Below, piece by piece: positions 6,770 to 35,416 of a stretch of 64,000 bases of DNA; position 1 is the stretch's first letter; the number at the start of each line of letters is the position of its first letter. A program made the position numbers and the translations under genes. Location: the NCBI RefSeq assembly GCF_000011345.1, contig NC_004113.1:1116001-1180000 (forward strand), read 5' to 3'. Below the pieces are notes generated by a model. That model saw nothing but the letters and a program-made list of their open reading frames with translations, had not been told where the DNA came from and did not search any database. Source of the stretch: Thermosynechococcus vestitus BP-1 (lineage in GTDB: Bacteria > Cyanobacteriota > Cyanobacteriia > Thermosynechococcales > Thermosynechococcaceae).

Positions 6770-6807
6770 ACTAGATCAGGGGGGCGATCGCCCCCGCCCA
6801 AAGTGCG

Positions 6808-7353
6808 CTAAACTAGGTTTGCTGCGGACGTGGCGGAATTGGCAGACGCGCTAGATTTAGGTTCTAGTACCGCAAGGTGTGTGGGTTCAAGTCCCTCCGT
6901 CCGCACTTTAGAATCTGCAGGCTCCTGCAAATAATAAGCAAGTGCTTTCTTTTGTATAGTTCGAAAAATGTTGTAAAAACCATTGACACGCGAGGGAGTT
7001 AGGCTAATTTCCAGCCCTGTTCGCTGAATAAAATCAGGCCTTAACTGGAGGATTTCTGCGGGAGTCAAGCCATTTAACCCCTCAATTAACAGTCCCACTA
7101 ATCCCTTAGTGAGCTGGGAGTCGGAATCTCCCTGAAATATCACTCTCCCCTCCTGCAAACGAGCAGTTACATATACCTGAGAGACGCAGCCGGGAACTTT
7201 GTGTTCTGGCACCTTTTGCTCCTCAGGGAAAGAGGGTAGGCGCTTCGCAAATGAAAGTAGATACTCATAGCGCCGTCGCTGCTCTGGGATTTGTTGAAAA
7301 CGTTGGACAATCTGCTCAAGACGGGGAGGCAAAGGCTGGGAAAAAGATGACAT
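6808..7353 (-). CDS. sufE: SufE-like cysteine desulfurase activator with a tail encoded antisense to tRNA-Leu
   Basis: 181 residues from the ATG at 7353 (MSSFSQPLPP). Core SufE features are RRYEYLLSFAKRLP, HKVPGCVSQVYV (the sulfur-accepting Cys at about 57) and RSDSQ-type helices up to FRTIQKKALAYYLQ (about residue 145). Known SufE proteins end near here. In this gene no stop occurs, and the frame continues for about 32 codons through the complement of tRNA-Leu to a stop at 6808. SufE takes persulfide sulfur from SufS for Fe-S assembly. An in-frame ATG at 7401 is possible but lacks family support. Confidence 0.85.
   Translation of the reverse strand: MSSFSQPLPPRLEQIVQRFQQIPEQRRRYEYLLSFAKRLPSFPEEQKVPEHKVPGCVSQVYVTARLQEGRVIFQGDSDSQLTKGLVGLLIEGLNGLTPAEILQLRPDFIQRTGLEISLTPSRVNGFYNIFRTIQKKALAYYLQEPADSKVRTEGLEPTHLAVLEPKSSASANSATSAANLV
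6824..6905 (+). tRNA. tRNA-Leu (anticodon UAG)
   Basis: 82-nt gene starting at GCGGACG and ending CGTCCGC plus discriminator A; the seven acceptor pairs all match. The anticodon stem CTAGA/TCTAG (6851-6855/6863-6867) closes loop TTTAGGT, giving anticodon TAG at 6858-6860. A long variable arm fits class II tRNA-Leu, and GGGTTCAAGTCCC is the T arm. CCA is not encoded. The whole gene lies antisense inside the 3' end of the sufE reading frame. Confidence 0.97.
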
Positions 7354-7552
7354 GGGGATTGTAGCAGTGAGCTGGCGACAAAAAGTGAAAATGATTTTCA
7401 CTTCAATTATACTTTCACTGGACTAGCAAGACCCCCTGTAATCACCCATCGGCTGCCTGGGCTAACCTTAAAACCTAGAATGACAGGCCTAGATCCTGAT
7501 TCATCACCCAGAGTTGTCACTTCTACCGAGCAAGAGCTGGCTTCCCTGGGAT

Positions 7553-7581
7553 TTGCTTTGATATCCCCGCTGGGTTATGCT
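7553..7581 (+). promoter_or_regulatory. Predicted sigma-70-type promoter for metE leader
   Basis: TTGCTT (7553-7558) and TATGCT (7576-7581) are separated by exactly 17 bp. Transcription would begin near 7588-7590, immediately before the cobalamin riboswitch, which supports the call. It is predicted from sequence alone. Confidence 0.6.
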
Positions 7582-7589
7582 ATGGTTGG

Positions 7590-7728
7590 CTTAGTTGCTC
7601 GGTTCTGGTGGGGATCAGCCATCAGACGTAAGGGGGAAAGTGCAGTGTGAATCTGCCGCTGTCCCGCAGCTGTGAGGAGAGATCTCACTCTCTAAGTCAG
7701 AATGCCCGCCGAGTGGTCAACCCGATAC
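7590..7728 (+). promoter_or_regulatory. Cobalamin (B12) riboswitch upstream of metE
   Basis: The leader has the characteristic cobalamin-element core: AAGGGGGAAAGTGCAGTGTG (from 7630), AATCTGCCGCTGTCCCGCAG (7651-7670) and the closing B12-box-like TAAGTCAGAATGCCCGCC (7693-7710). Conserved core segments of the class are in the right order. It lies about 270 nt upstream of the metE start. A CATCTG/CAGATG hairpin at 7733-7751 followed by a T-run near 7764 may be part of the expression platform. Repression of B12-independent MetE when cobalamin is plentiful is the expected logic. Confidence 0.9.
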
Positions 7729-8001
7729 GTCAACATCTGCGAGGTACAGATGATGAAAGCAAACTTTTTTGATTTCTATTACTGTCGAACTTTAAGCTTT
7801 GACCCCCCGAGGCCAAATTATCTGAGCTTAACGAGCTGCTGCTAGGCAGTAGTCCTGCTGGTGTAAAGGTAGCAACTAGCTTTTTGCCATTGGCCACCGA
7901 TTTTAGTTAGCTATCTCCATTTGTTTCTAAACGGTGCTGTTTCTGAATCCGGAACCAGCGCTCTTTTCCATTGGACTGACATAATTTAGGCTAGGAAAAC
8001 G

Positions 8002-10278
8002 ATGACCATTCAAACCGCAACCCTAGGGTATCCCCGTATTGGCAAAAACCGTGAGTTAAAAAAGGCACTAGAAGCCTTTTGGAGCAACCAACTGGACGCA
8101 GAAGCTTTGCTCAAAACAGCTCAGGACATTGAATTACAGAATTGGCAAAAGCAGCTTGAGGTCGGCATTGATCGTATCGGTATTGGTGATTTGAGTCTTT
8201 ACGATTCTGTTTTAGATTGGAGCATCCGGTTTGGCATCATTCCAGAGCGGTACCGCTCTTTTACAGGTCTGGAGCAATACTTTGCAATGGCAAGAGGCAA
8301 GGATGGTATTCCAGCCCTTGAGATGACTAAGTGGTTTGATACGAACTATCACTATTTAGTACCTGAAATTAGTGAGGCTTTTCAACCAACTGACTTTAGT
8401 GATTTCCTAGAAACTGTTCGCCGTGCTCAAACCCTCTTGGGCGATCGCGCCGTTCCAATCGTGCTGGGACCTCTCACTCTCCTACGGCTCAGTCGGCTAG
8501 AGACGAACCTAGAGCAAGCTGTTTCCTACTTGCGCGATCGCTATCTCATCCTGTTAAGGGAACTGAAAAATCTGGGTGTGGTTGAAGTGCAAATACACGA
8601 ACCCGCCTTGGTCCTAGAAGAGGCTGATAGCTTTAAGAGCTTCTATCAATCAACATTTGATACACTGCGTCAAGCTAACCTACCCCTTCATCTTGTCACC
8701 TACTTTGATGACCTAGGGGCAGCCTGGCCGTGGGTGATGGAGTTACCTGTGACATGCATCAGTTTAGACTTTACCCGTGGGCACAACCTAGCCCTGCTGA
8801 AAGAGTATGGCTTCCCAGCAGATAAGCAGTTGGGGGTAGGAATTATTGATGGCCGCAATATTTGGAAAATTCGGCCTGAATCCGTGTTGTCAACCTTGGA
8901 AACGATTCAAAGCATCACCGCCAATATTCGTCTACATCCCTCATCTTCCCTACAATTTGTGCCCTATGATGCAAAGCGAGAGGTCAAGCTACCAGAGCCT
9001 TTGCGAGATGTCTTGAGTTTTGCTGAGCAAAAGCTGGATGAGGTAGTCCTCTTGGCTCGGGTGCTCAATAGCAATGATGGAACCAATCGCGAAATCTTAA
9101 TGAAAAACCCCGAATTGACAGCCATACAAGCCCAATGGAAAGCCTTTGAGCAATTTAGCCCTGTCAATCCAACGGTACAGGCGCGGCTTCGCAATCTGAG
9201 TGTGCGTGATTTAGAGCGCCCGCTGCCTTACGAGCAACGTCGAACCCTCCAGCCAACTCTACCGCCCTTGCCAACGACAACGATTGGATCATTTCCTCAA
9301 ACTGCCGAGGTCAGGCAACTGCGGGTGAAGTTAAAACGGCATGAAATCACCCAAGCCGAGTATGAAGCAGCAATCGATGAGGAAATTGCCAAGTGCGTCC
9401 GGTTACAGGAGGAAGTGGGCCTAGATGTGTTGGTGCACGGTGAGTTTGAGCGCTCCGATATGGTCGAGTTCTTTGGCCAGCAGCTCTCTGGATTTGCCTT
9501 TACAGAACACGGTTGGGTGCAAAGCTATGGCAGCCGCTGTGTACGTCCACCAATTATTTATGGTGACATTGCCCGCCCTCAGCCGATGACCGTTCGCGAG
9601 TTTAAGGTGGCACAATCCCTCACCGACAAAATTGTTAAGGCCATGCTGACTGGACCTGTCACTATGATTAACTGGTCATTTACCCGCACTGACATTCCTC
9701 GCAGTGAACAGGCAATGCAGATTGCCCTTGCTTTGCGAGATGAAGTTGCAGATTTGGAAGCAGCCGGTGCAAAAATGATACAGATTGATGAACCGGCCCT
9801 ACGGGAGGGGCTACCCCTGAAAGCAGAACGCTGGAATGAGTATTTATCTTGGGCTGTGGATGCGTTTCGGTTAGCTGCTGGCGTTGCCAAGCCTGAGACC
9901 CAAATTCACACCCACATGTGCTACTCCGAGTTTGGTGACATCATTGAGCACATCGAGCGGCTCGATGCGGATGTATTGTCAATTGAAAATAGCCGCAGCA
10001 ACAATGAGACCCTCTTTCAAATTACAGATGCCGGTTACAGACATCAAGTCGGCGTTGGTGTTTATGATGTCCACAGTCCGGCGGTGCCCAGTGTTGAGCA
10101 GCTTGTGCAACAGCTCCGAACTTCAGTTGCAAATTTAGCCCCTGAACAGATTTGGGTCAACCCTGATTGTGGATTAAAGACTCGCCACTGGGAGGAAGTT
10201 ATCCCATCCTTGAAAAATATGGTAGAAGCCACCAAAACTATCCGGCAAGAGGTAATGCAATCTAAAAATAACGCCTAG
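8002..10278 (+). CDS. metE: Cobalamin-independent methionine synthase MetE
   Basis: 758 residues, the usual MetE length, with a duplicated barrel. The N-terminus TLGYPRIGKNRELKKALE is diagnostic. The C-terminal catalytic half has TTTIGSFPQT, LVHGEFERSDMVEFFG, zinc ligands in HTHMCYSEF (His and Cys) and WVNPDCGLKTR (second Cys), and the Glu of SIENSRSNNE. It transfers the methyl group of 5-methyltetrahydropteroyl-triglutamate to homocysteine. The upstream B12 riboswitch indicates shut-off when cobalamin is available, implying that a B12-dependent MetH exists elsewhere. The gene stands alone. Confidence 0.97.
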   Translation: MTIQTATLGYPRIGKNRELKKALEAFWSNQLDAEALLKTAQDIELQNWQKQLEVGIDRIGIGDLSLYDSVLDWSIRFGIIPERYRSFTGLEQYFAMARGKDGIPALEMTKWFDTNYHYLVPEISEAFQPTDFSDFLETVRRAQTLLGDRAVPIVLGPLTLLRLSRLETNLEQAVSYLRDRYLILLRELKNLGVVEVQIHEPALVLEEADSFKSFYQSTFDTLRQANLPLHLVTYFDDLGAAWPWVMELPVTCISLDFTRGHNLALLKEYGFPADKQLGVGIIDGRNIWKIRPESVLSTLETIQSITANIRLHPSSSLQFVPYDAKREVKLPEPLRDVLSFAEQKLDEVVLLARVLNSNDGTNREILMKNPELTAIQAQWKAFEQFSPVNPTVQARLRNLSVRDLERPLPYEQRRTLQPTLPPLPTTTIGSFPQTAEVRQLRVKLKRHEITQAEYEAAIDEEIAKCVRLQEEVGLDVLVHGEFERSDMVEFFGQQLSGFAFTEHGWVQSYGSRCVRPPIIYGDIARPQPMTVREFKVAQSLTDKIVKAMLTGPVTMINWSFTRTDIPRSEQAMQIALALRDEVADLEAAGAKMIQIDEPALREGLPLKAERWNEYLSWAVDAFRLAAGVAKPETQIHTHMCYSEFGDIIEHIERLDADVLSIENSRSNNETLFQITDAGYRHQVGVGVYDVHSPAVPSVEQLVQQLRTSVANLAPEQIWVNPDCGLKTRHWEEVIPSLKNMVEATKTIRQEVMQSKNNA

Positions 10279-10294
10279 ACACTCTGTTTCAGCT

Positions 10295-10310
10295 CCTGGC
10301 AAAAGCCAGG
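10295..10310 (+). terminator. Hairpin after metE, possible terminator
   Basis: CCTGGC-AAAA-GCCAGG forms a perfect 6-bp stem 17 bp after the metE stop. No T-run follows, so it may be an RNA 3'-end stabiliser rather than a true intrinsic terminator. The remaining 200 bp up to the next gene show nothing else I can name. Confidence 0.4.
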
Positions 10311-10510
10311 TCCCTTAGCAGTATATTCCGGATGTCGGTAAGGAAGAGAGGGCGTTTAGGGTTGGCAATGCCATTCCTGCCCACAGTGATTGAGATGCTG
10401 GGCTCAATTCCTATCGATGGCCCACCCTGCACAGTTGGGCTTTTGGTCATCGGTAGGAATCAGTAATATCAACTTCCTAAGCAACCGTGATATCTCAGCG
10501 AAGGACTGTT

Positions 10511-11035
10511 ATGTCCAGGGGCAATCCTAATCCTGTTGAGCCCAGTTCCAGCCTGAATGAGTTTCTCGAGGAGAAACTAATGGATGAACTATCGGAAATG
10601 CTGCATTGGCAGCAAGCCTTTATTGCCACGAATTTGTTAGTACTTGGATATAACGCTTGGGCAGGTTACCTGTGCGGTGAGCGGGGAGTGGTTATTTGCA
10701 GTACCAATTCTCCTGGGTTTGGCATTGCGGGAGAATCTTTCCGAACTCACTTTGTTCCCCGTTCCCGCCTTGCTCCCTTCCTAAATGCTTGGTTAGCTGC
10801 TCCTGATACTGTGATTTTGCGCCATCACTTTATGACTGCCCACATTTTGGAAGCAGTGGATGCTTACCATCCAGCTACCGAATTAATATTCCTCTTGGAA
10901 TCCTTTAATCGAGTAACGTTTTTCTATCTGAAGAACTTGCCGATCGCGCCGCCTCAATGTTATGAACAGGTGCGTAGAAATTGGCAAGAGTTTCAGCTAG
11001 CTATTGGTCAAGGGCAGTGCCAAACTATACAGTAG
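10511..11035 (+). CDS. Conserved cyanobacterial hypothetical protein
   Basis: About 174 residues from the ATG at 10511 (MSRGNPNPVEPSS); an in-frame ATG at 10487 would add 8 residues. It is a soluble globular protein without signal peptide. Its helix-rich N-terminal part is LNEFLEEKLMDELSEMLHWQ, and its later segments GYLCGERGVVICSTNSPG and LIFLLESFNRVTFFYLKNLP alternate beta and hydrophobic stretches. No family is recognised. It lies between metE and tRNA-Val with its own gaps on both sides, so no operon context helps. Confidence 0.6.
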   Translation: MSRGNPNPVEPSSSLNEFLEEKLMDELSEMLHWQQAFIATNLLVLGYNAWAGYLCGERGVVICSTNSPGFGIAGESFRTHFVPRSRLAPFLNAWLAAPDTVILRHHFMTAHILEAVDAYHPATELIFLLESFNRVTFFYLKNLPIAPPQCYEQVRRNWQEFQLAIGQGQCQTIQ

Positions 11036-11125
11036 CTTTGCCTATACCAGAACCAATGAATTAAGGCCTAGTAAATAGGTAGCTTAAAAATCCTTTTCTA
11101 TAGATTTAAAACAATTGGCTTGCTA

Positions 11126-11199
11126 TGGACACAACTGGACTCGAACCAGTGACCCCCACGATGTCAACGTGGTGCTCTAACCAACTGAGCTATGCGTCC
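11126..11199 (-). tRNA. tRNA-Val (anticodon GAC)
   Basis: 74-nt gene on the minus strand beginning GGACGCA and ending TGTGTCC plus discriminator A. The acceptor stem pairs throughout, with one G-U. The D arm is TAGCTCAGTTGGTTAGA; the anticodon stem CCACG/CGTGG encloses TTGACAT, giving GAC; the T arm is CTGGTTCGAGTCCAG. No encoded CCA. Confidence 0.97.
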
Positions 11200-11228
11200 T
11201 TGGATTTATTATCTTAGCATACACAAGG

Positions 11229-11717
11229 CTAATTTTGTAGCAGCTGAACCGTTACATTTGTATCGGCGCGATCGCTCAACGAACGCGTGGCCACCCCTAA
11301 AATGACCGGCTCACTGACCCCCGGTTGAGGATGTTGGATAGTACGGGCAATCACGGTCAAGCGATCGCCCCCTCGGCCGAGCCGTCCCAAGGAAAATAAA
11401 TCATTGGCTGCTTGTACGAGCGTTGCTTTAAGGGTACTGGGGTCAATGTCGGCAGGAACAGTGATGACCGCTTGAGTGGCGCCATTGTCATAGACGAGGG
11501 TGTATTTGCCGGCACCAGGCACTGGGGAGTGAACAATCGGCACAATACTCAGGGCAAAGAGCCCCACCGTCACAACACCAAGAAACCCACTAATACCGAC
11601 AAAGCGAAAGCGCACACCCCAGCGAAACATAAAAGCGAGTGCAGTCAAGCCGGTCATGACAAGGGTGGCAATGCCTGCCCAGCGGCTATAGGTGGCAAAA
11701 TCGGTGGGGGTTAGCAC
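11229..11717 (-). CDS. ycf51: Ycf51 family protein (DUF2518)
   Basis: 162 residues starting at a GTG (11717). Two membrane segments occupy about residues 12-32 and 38-62, followed by a soluble domain with LVYDNGATQAVITVP, LVQAANDLFSLGRLGRG and HPQPGVSEPVILG, the pattern of Ycf51/DUF2518, found in cyanobacteria and some plastids. Function is unknown. The GTG shares one base with the TAG stop of sufU, so translational coupling is likely. Confidence 0.8.
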   Translation of the reverse strand: MLTPTDFATYSRWAGIATLVMTGLTALAFMFRWGVRFRFVGISGFLGVVTVGLFALSIVPIVHSPVPGAGKYTLVYDNGATQAVITVPADIDPSTLKATLVQAANDLFSLGRLGRGGDRLTVIARTIQHPQPGVSEPVILGVATRSLSDRADTNVTVQLLQN

Positions 11718-32138: not shown

Positions 32139-32766
32139 GTGCGATGCGAAAGCCAGCCAGGTGATTGTCCCGTTAGCCCAACAAGCTAGAACGGGACCGA
32201 TTGTTCCCCCAACCGTAGCCTAGGGAGGCATGCGCGACTGGTAACGGTCAGGTATGAAGCCCTCCCGACAACGGAGCCCGAACCGAAAGGTTGAAGCCGA
32301 ATCCGTGAGGAGGAAGCAACTTTGCCAGCGTCAGGCGATAGGGAGCTAGGCTTGAGGGTATGGTGAACGCAAGTGAAGTGACGCCAGAAGCCTCGTTACT
32401 ATAAACAGGCCAAAGACGCCGATAGGCCTGAGCCAAAATGGCAAACGGACTGGTTTCACTGCTGTCATCTCAGTGGACGGGGACAACAGCTCCGCCGGGG
32501 TAAAGTCACCACCTAACCCCTCGCGTCATCTGGTTGGAACGCGGTAAGCCCGTATCGTCGCCTTGAACATTCAAGGCAGGCAAACCGTAAGGAATGCTGA
32601 TGAGGGTGCGGGTATGGGATGCAGGAGAAAGCGAATGCTGGTCTGTAACGGACCGGATAGGGGTTGAGGAGAGGACCCAACATCACCCCGCCCGAAAGGG
32701 AGCAGACTTCCTGCTGGTCTCCCTTTGCGAGATAACCTGTAGAACCTCTTGAATGGAGACAAGGCA

Positions 32767-33605
32767 GTGCGACGCGAAAGCTAGCCAGATGATTGTCCCA
32801 CTAGCCCAACAAGCTAGAACGGGACCGGTTGTTCCCCCAACCGTAGCCTAAGGAGGCATGCGTGACTGGTAACGGTCAGGTATGAAGCCCTCCCGACAAT
32901 GAAGCCCGAACCGGAAGGTTGGAGCCGAATCCGTGAGGAGGAAGCAACTTCACCAGCGTCAGGTGATAGGGAGCTAGGCTTGAGGGTATGGTGAACGCAA
33001 GTGAAGTGACGCTAGAAGCCTCGTTACTCCAAGCAGGCCAAAGATGCTGATAGGCCTGAGCCAAAATGGCAAAGCGGATTGGATTCACTGCTTGCTTTTC
33101 AGTGAACGGGGACAGCAACTCCGCCGGGGTATAGTCACCACCTAACCCCTCGTGTCATCTGGTTGGAACGCGGTAAGCCCGTATCTTCGCCTTGAACATT
33201 CAAGGCAGGCAAACCGTAAGGAATGCTGATGGGGGTGCGGGTAGAGGAGGTGGGAAAAAGCGAATGCTAGCCTGTAATGGGCTAGATAGGGATTGAGAAT
33301 GCTGGCAGGACATTCAACATCATCCCACTCGAAAGAGGGCAGACTTCCCGCCGGTCCCCCCTTACGAGAAAGTCTATAGAACCTTCCTAATGGTGACAAT
33401 GCAAATGGCGGTGATCTTGAGTCACTGGTGCGGTCACCAACCTGCTCAAAAGGTAGAGAGGCTGTAGATGAGTATCGTAAAGGTTGCATGCACAACCGGT
33501 TCCTCTTAAATGAGGGGTCCTGGGGGGCTCGAGCCGGATGCGGGGAAACTTGCACGTCCGGTTCCTAGGGGGCTAGGGGGCAGCGATGCCCCCCTGCTAC
33601 CCGAC
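32767..33605 (+). mobile_element. ORF-less group IIB intron nested inside the outer intron (twintron)
   Basis: 839 bp from GTGCGACGCG to CTACCCGAC, with domain V at 33531-33564. Removal joins GGAGACAAGGCA to AATGACGGTGG, which matches the uninterrupted equivalent in the inner intron itself (GACAATGCAAATGGCGGTG), so the ends are secure. The insertion lies one base before the RT start codon of the outer intron. Domain IV keeps decayed first and last codons of an RT gene around a compact hairpin at 33482-33497. Confidence 0.93.
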
Positions 33606-35280: not shown

Positions 35281-35416
35281 GAGGCTTGAGCCGGATGCGG
35301 GGAAACTGGCACGTCCGGTTCTTAGGGGGCTAGGGGGCAGTAATGCCCCCCCTGCTACCCGACTCACACTTCATTGATAAAAGGTACGTAGCCATGGGAG
35401 CGATCGCTAGACTCTT

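Follow-up and report, generated by a model that had tools for sequence, protein, structure and literature searches.

How does the gene for a conserved protein come to end inside the antisense strand of a complete tRNA gene, and does either the peptide tail or the antisense transcript that results have a role in the cell? This question is raised by sufE of Thermosynechococcus vestitus BP-1, which lies in a stretch of 64,000 nucleotides (NC_004113.1, positions 1,116,001 to 1,180,000) analysed here as a whole and called the window; all coordinates refer to it. The openly accessible literature was searched for SufE, antisense RNA and overlaps of proteins with tRNA antisense in this organism, and nothing about the locus was returned.

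A complete SufE domain with an antisense tail

The reading frame (7353-6808, minus strand) encodes 181 amino acids. As delimited by ORF analysis, Pfam and alignment with relatives, it consists of a core (residues 1-143; 6925-7353), a short linker (residues 144-149; 6907-6924), a tail (residues 150-181; 6811-6906) and the stop codon TAG (6808-6810). The SufE domain (PF02657) is full, i.e. it covers residues 17-135 and profile positions 2-120 of 121, with an E-value of 7e-42 and 142 bits against a cut-off of 27. In the AlphaFold2 model the core reaches a pLDDT of about 96, and the best Foldseek matches of this model are the SufE proteins of E. coli and Salmonella, with a TM-score by target length of 0.86 against 1mzg. 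C56 in the GC.SQV motif is invariant in the 19 sequences aligned and is presumably the conserved sulfur-accepting cysteine known from this family. Purifying selection acts on the core, with dN/dS values of 0.10-0.23. Judged by its sequence, the protein is a member of the SufE family, with SufS stimulation and sulfur acceptance as putative activities, and its gene is the single SufE gene found in the BP-1 genome.

Similarity to 18 relatives stops at about Q143, and no stop codon follows the fold. The frame continues through the linker into the antisense strand of tRNA-Leu(UAG) (6824-6906, plus strand), which was detected by ARAGORN, scores above the Rfam tRNA gathering threshold and has one match in the genome. 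The initial annotation had described a sufE frame that lacks a stop after its core, runs for about 32 codons antisense to the complete tRNA gene and stops at 6808, and ORF analysis, Pfam and ARAGORN show these coordinates to be right. It had also described the two genes as convergent, and indeed the tRNA gene lies wholly inside sufE on the opposite strand. It was right, too, in saying that the tRNA dictates the sequence of the tail: VRTEGLEPTHLAVLEPKSSASANSATSAANLV (residues 150-181), with TEGLEPTHLAVLEPK as an example of a peptide within it, corresponds to the complete tRNA antisense plus 13 nt upstream of the tRNA. The tail stays unchanged because the tRNA cannot change. Just one of the three antisense frames of this tRNA is open throughout, and it is the one used by sufE. 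Having lost its own stop and joined this open frame, sufE therefore gives every complete SufE chain a 32-residue tail, which no full translation of the gene at this locus can avoid.

An artefact, i.e. a sequencing error that hides a stop codon or a falsely called ORF, has in its favour that peptides antisense to tRNAs are common false ORFs (PMC9710616). However, three separate genomes agree, and the conserved domain that forms the core has the low dN/dS values given above. Two other Thermosynechococcus species, G026 and G021, share frame, tail and stop, and all three species are identical over the 99 nt that run from the end of the tRNA to the sufE stop. The hidden stop that the initial annotation had named as a possible refutation is excluded by this agreement, and we give an artefact of any kind practically no credence.

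The linker between core and tRNA antisense has six codons in BP-1 and seven in G026 and G021. In the alignment of the three species, it shows nonsynonymous changes only, plus a 3-nt indel. When G026 is compared with G021, 14 synonymous changes and 5 nonsynonymous ones fall in the core, while all 3 changes in the linker are nonsynonymous (Fisher p 0.036, from small numbers); this contrast is not significant in the other two species pairs. The linker seems free to change. If four random changes were made in it, the frame would still be open in about 76% of cases, and three open linkers are thus weak evidence for selection.

These data bear on the idea that the tail serves the protein, for instance in heat stability, SufS binding or control of SufE turnover, and that selection has kept its frame. 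While the frame is open in three species and the 3-nt linker indel is in frame, the tail is predicted to be disordered (AlphaFold2 pLDDT below 50 for residues 147-181), all linker changes are nonsynonymous, the tail is absent from other SufE proteins and the tRNA alone explains its identity. Such a function thus appears very unlikely to us. Rather, the tail is probably floppy, as modelled, and probably passive, i.e. tolerated rather than selected.

A stop codon borrowed from the neighbour

The sufE stop is the complement of part of a conserved element, CTAAACTAG (6808-6816, plus strand), which the alignment places upstream of the tRNA. Just 5' of tRNA-Leu, gcgctaaactag is kept across the genus, with gcgctagactag in some members, whether or not the accessory genes described below are present. 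In the outgroups G019 and G027, in which tRNA-Leu is found at another place, the alignment shows TAA in the same frame within this element. Since a stop in that frame exists genus-wide irrespective of the accessory genes, the sufE stop probably predates their presence at this site. In the tRNA promoter the element probably serves as the -10 region, and the locus is an example of a gene that takes its stop codon from the element preceding the adjacent gene.

Beyond this stop, and also beyond the stop of the adjacent flavoprotein gene, there is a GC-rich hairpin (6796-6777, minus strand) at which the sufE transcript may end. It has a weak T tract, and a scan expects about two such sites in the region by chance, about as many as are seen.

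An accessory block between two tRNA genes

Six sister species have the flavoprotein gene next to tRNA-Leu and tRNA-Val, and these two tRNAs face each other at a distance of 88-117 bp. Their synteny and DNA similarity to the window extend from 1 to about 6905 and set in again from about 11125. The block that these species are missing (6907-11125; 4.2 kb) occupies exactly the space between tRNA-Leu and tRNA-Val(GAC) (11126-11199, minus strand), its right border. It consists of sufE, a cobalamin riboswitch (RF00174; 7583-7727, plus strand) upstream of metE, metE itself (8002-10278, plus strand), which encodes the cobalamin-independent methionine synthase, and a 182-amino-acid gene without a Pfam match (10487-11035, plus strand). 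A transcriptome study of BP-1 names tlr1090 as a metE gene (PMC5340862). The GC content of the block is 0.479, as opposed to 0.544 in the flavoprotein gene and 0.515 in the right flank.

With one border at the 3' end of a tRNA gene and the corresponding site empty in relatives, the block presents the picture used to recognize tRNA-targeted elements. No direct repeat of the tRNA 3' segment was found at its far end within 6780-11250, and its genes (sufE, metE and the 182-amino-acid gene) include no integrase. Elsewhere in the window, Rfam matches to group II introns lie at 32197-33605, 35286-35363 and 43143-43922, apparently representing more than one copy, with one pair possibly nested or partial.

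The comparison of sufE 3' ends among relatives, which the initial annotation had proposed, gives a uniform picture: the three species with sufE at this tRNA all read through it, and the six sisters have no sufE there. A stop ahead of the tRNA in related strains, which the initial annotation had named as a refutation, is therefore not applicable in that form. The carriers of block and fusion (BP-1, G026 and G021) form one clade with a bootstrap of 98. SufE was found in 5 of 11 Thermosynechococcus species and metE in 7 of the 11 genomes. The sufE-metE pair of G022, which lies at another locus, shares the riboswitch layout and is 77-79% identical; its sufE stops normally with its own TAA 147 codons after the ATG. 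G026 and G021 possess a second sufE in a separate islet, which other species lack. The second copy of G021 (L029, 771768-772196) has an in-frame TAG near its start, immediately followed by an ATG, and is possibly a pseudogene. Because the block is absent in the sisters, its genes change loci and their presence is patchy, sufE and metE are accessory here. Elsewhere in G019, metE is followed by relatives of the 182-amino-acid gene, which are in tandem there; as this gene also lies directly 3' of metE in BP-1, a connection with methionine or B12 metabolism is possible.

Origin of the fusion

Overall, we consider it likely that the block came between the two tRNA genes in the ancestor of the three-species clade and cost sufE its stop codon, with the tail as a passive consequence. 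A block of lower GC content would have settled where the 3' ends of tRNA-Leu(UAG) and tRNA-Val(GAC) face each other; its left junction, no more than about 20 bases from the 3' end of tRNA-Leu, would have removed the sufE stop. By a chance of roughly one in three, sufE would have entered the sole fully open antisense frame of the tRNA, at the end of which the conserved upstream element already held a stop. The 32-residue tail, probably disordered, would leave the SufE fold undisturbed, and the sufE mRNA would hold a full antisense copy of tRNA-Leu, probably ending at the hairpin beyond it.

That the block was gained is the simplest reading of its distribution. Alternatively, the block could be ancestral and the sister clade could have lost it, which would make the fusion older than the split within the genus. 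With two clades only, the tree does not fix polarity, and the outgroup G019 has both metE and the 182-amino-acid gene. Nor does an integrase or a repeated tRNA end at the block borders mark an insertion, and in the outgroups G019 and G027 tRNA-Leu lies elsewhere. Parts of the block, however, sit elsewhere in G019 and G022, its GC content is unlike that of its flanks and the presence of sufE islets at several loci argues for gain, which makes such a loss rather unlikely.

A possible link to iron

Whether inserted or inherited, a sufE transcript that crosses the entire tRNA gene could be more than a passive product. A Fur-box-like palindrome, TGAAAATGATTTTCA (7386-7400), is located upstream of sufE and is retained as a palindrome in G026 and G021; it has two mismatches to the 7-1-7 Fur box, and sites with up to three mismatches are expected about once per window. 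Fur control of sufE via this putative site is plausible, and antisense transcription of tRNA-Leu may consequently rise under iron limitation. In Anabaena, expression of the SufE-like alr3513 went up 7.88-fold when furA was turned off, with FurA not binding the alr3513 promoter in vitro (PMC4788461). Fur-box-like sequences were also seen 5' of sufE in diverse cyanobacteria (L009, L010, L028, L083 and L084), which suggests that iron control of sufE could be widespread.

Could low-iron transcription of sufE then lower tRNA-Leu(UAG) by collision or RNA pairing, with the arrangement being kept as a regulator? The genes are convergent and their overlap is complete, the tRNA has a single match in the genome, the Fur-like site is conserved in the clade and the response of alr3513 in Anabaena points in the same direction. 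Yet the lack of in vitro binding of FurA to the alr3513 promoter speaks against it, a single event in one clade is easily retained by descent, and lowering a single-copy tRNA seems costly. Selection for such coupling is therefore improbable in our view. Similarly small is the chance we assign to the broader proposition that the sufE transcript, under the control of iron, works as antisense RNA against the only tRNA-Leu(UAG) and thereby links iron status to leucine-codon decoding, with the tail being fixed in the protein. If it were true, the mere placing of a gene block would have created a new link from iron status to the decoding of a leucine codon. The initial annotation had suggested a link between Fe-S assembly and tRNA expression; the comparative data speak rather for an accidental block junction with a tolerated tail. 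Insertion with a passive tail thus remains our preferred explanation, and the locus offers a natural test of what convergent transcription through an entire tRNA gene costs.

Comparison with known systems

How unusual is such a fusion? Our survey covered the tRNA-Leu kind only, in 291 cyanobacterial genomes. The tail peptide found matches in 73 of these, nearly all in open antisense frames and mostly short. None of the ten other tRNA-Leu antisense frames of 105-472 amino acids has a Pfam domain; among these genomes, conserved proteins thus rarely end in antisense to a tRNA, although every component of the case is commonplace. An open frame antisense to tRNA-Leu is ordinary by itself, and what is out of the ordinary is to find one joined in frame to a protein with a domain. 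A candidate sufE/tRNA-Leu fusion on an alphaproteobacterial contig (L090) was rejected, as the alignment crosses stop codons and the match consists of tRNA antisense only.

In sequence family, predicted fold and catalytic cysteine, the protein resembles the SufE/CsdE family (PF02657), from which it differs by its 32-residue C-terminal tail of tRNA antisense. Genomic islets at tRNA 3' ends are a known kind of accessory DNA; like these, the block adjoins a tRNA 3' end and has an empty site in relatives, but here neither an integrase nor a duplication of the tRNA 3' end was found, and it is a gap between two tRNA genes that has been filled. In yeast, Tar1p is a protein encoded antisense to rRNA. 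Protein sequence antisense to a structural RNA is common to both cases, but Tar1p is a separate gene, whereas here it is only the tail of a known protein. Finally, peptides antisense to tRNAs have been treated as spurious in published work and are collected as such in AntiFam (PMC9710616), and the sufE tail is indeed the usual tRNA-Leu antisense peptide of many genomes. In contrast to a stand-alone false ORF, however, it is here the in-frame C-terminus of a real, conserved protein. Thus, a peptide of a type normally filtered out as an annotation error is here, with the empty site as a control, the true end of a protein, and automatic trimming would therefore yield the wrong one.
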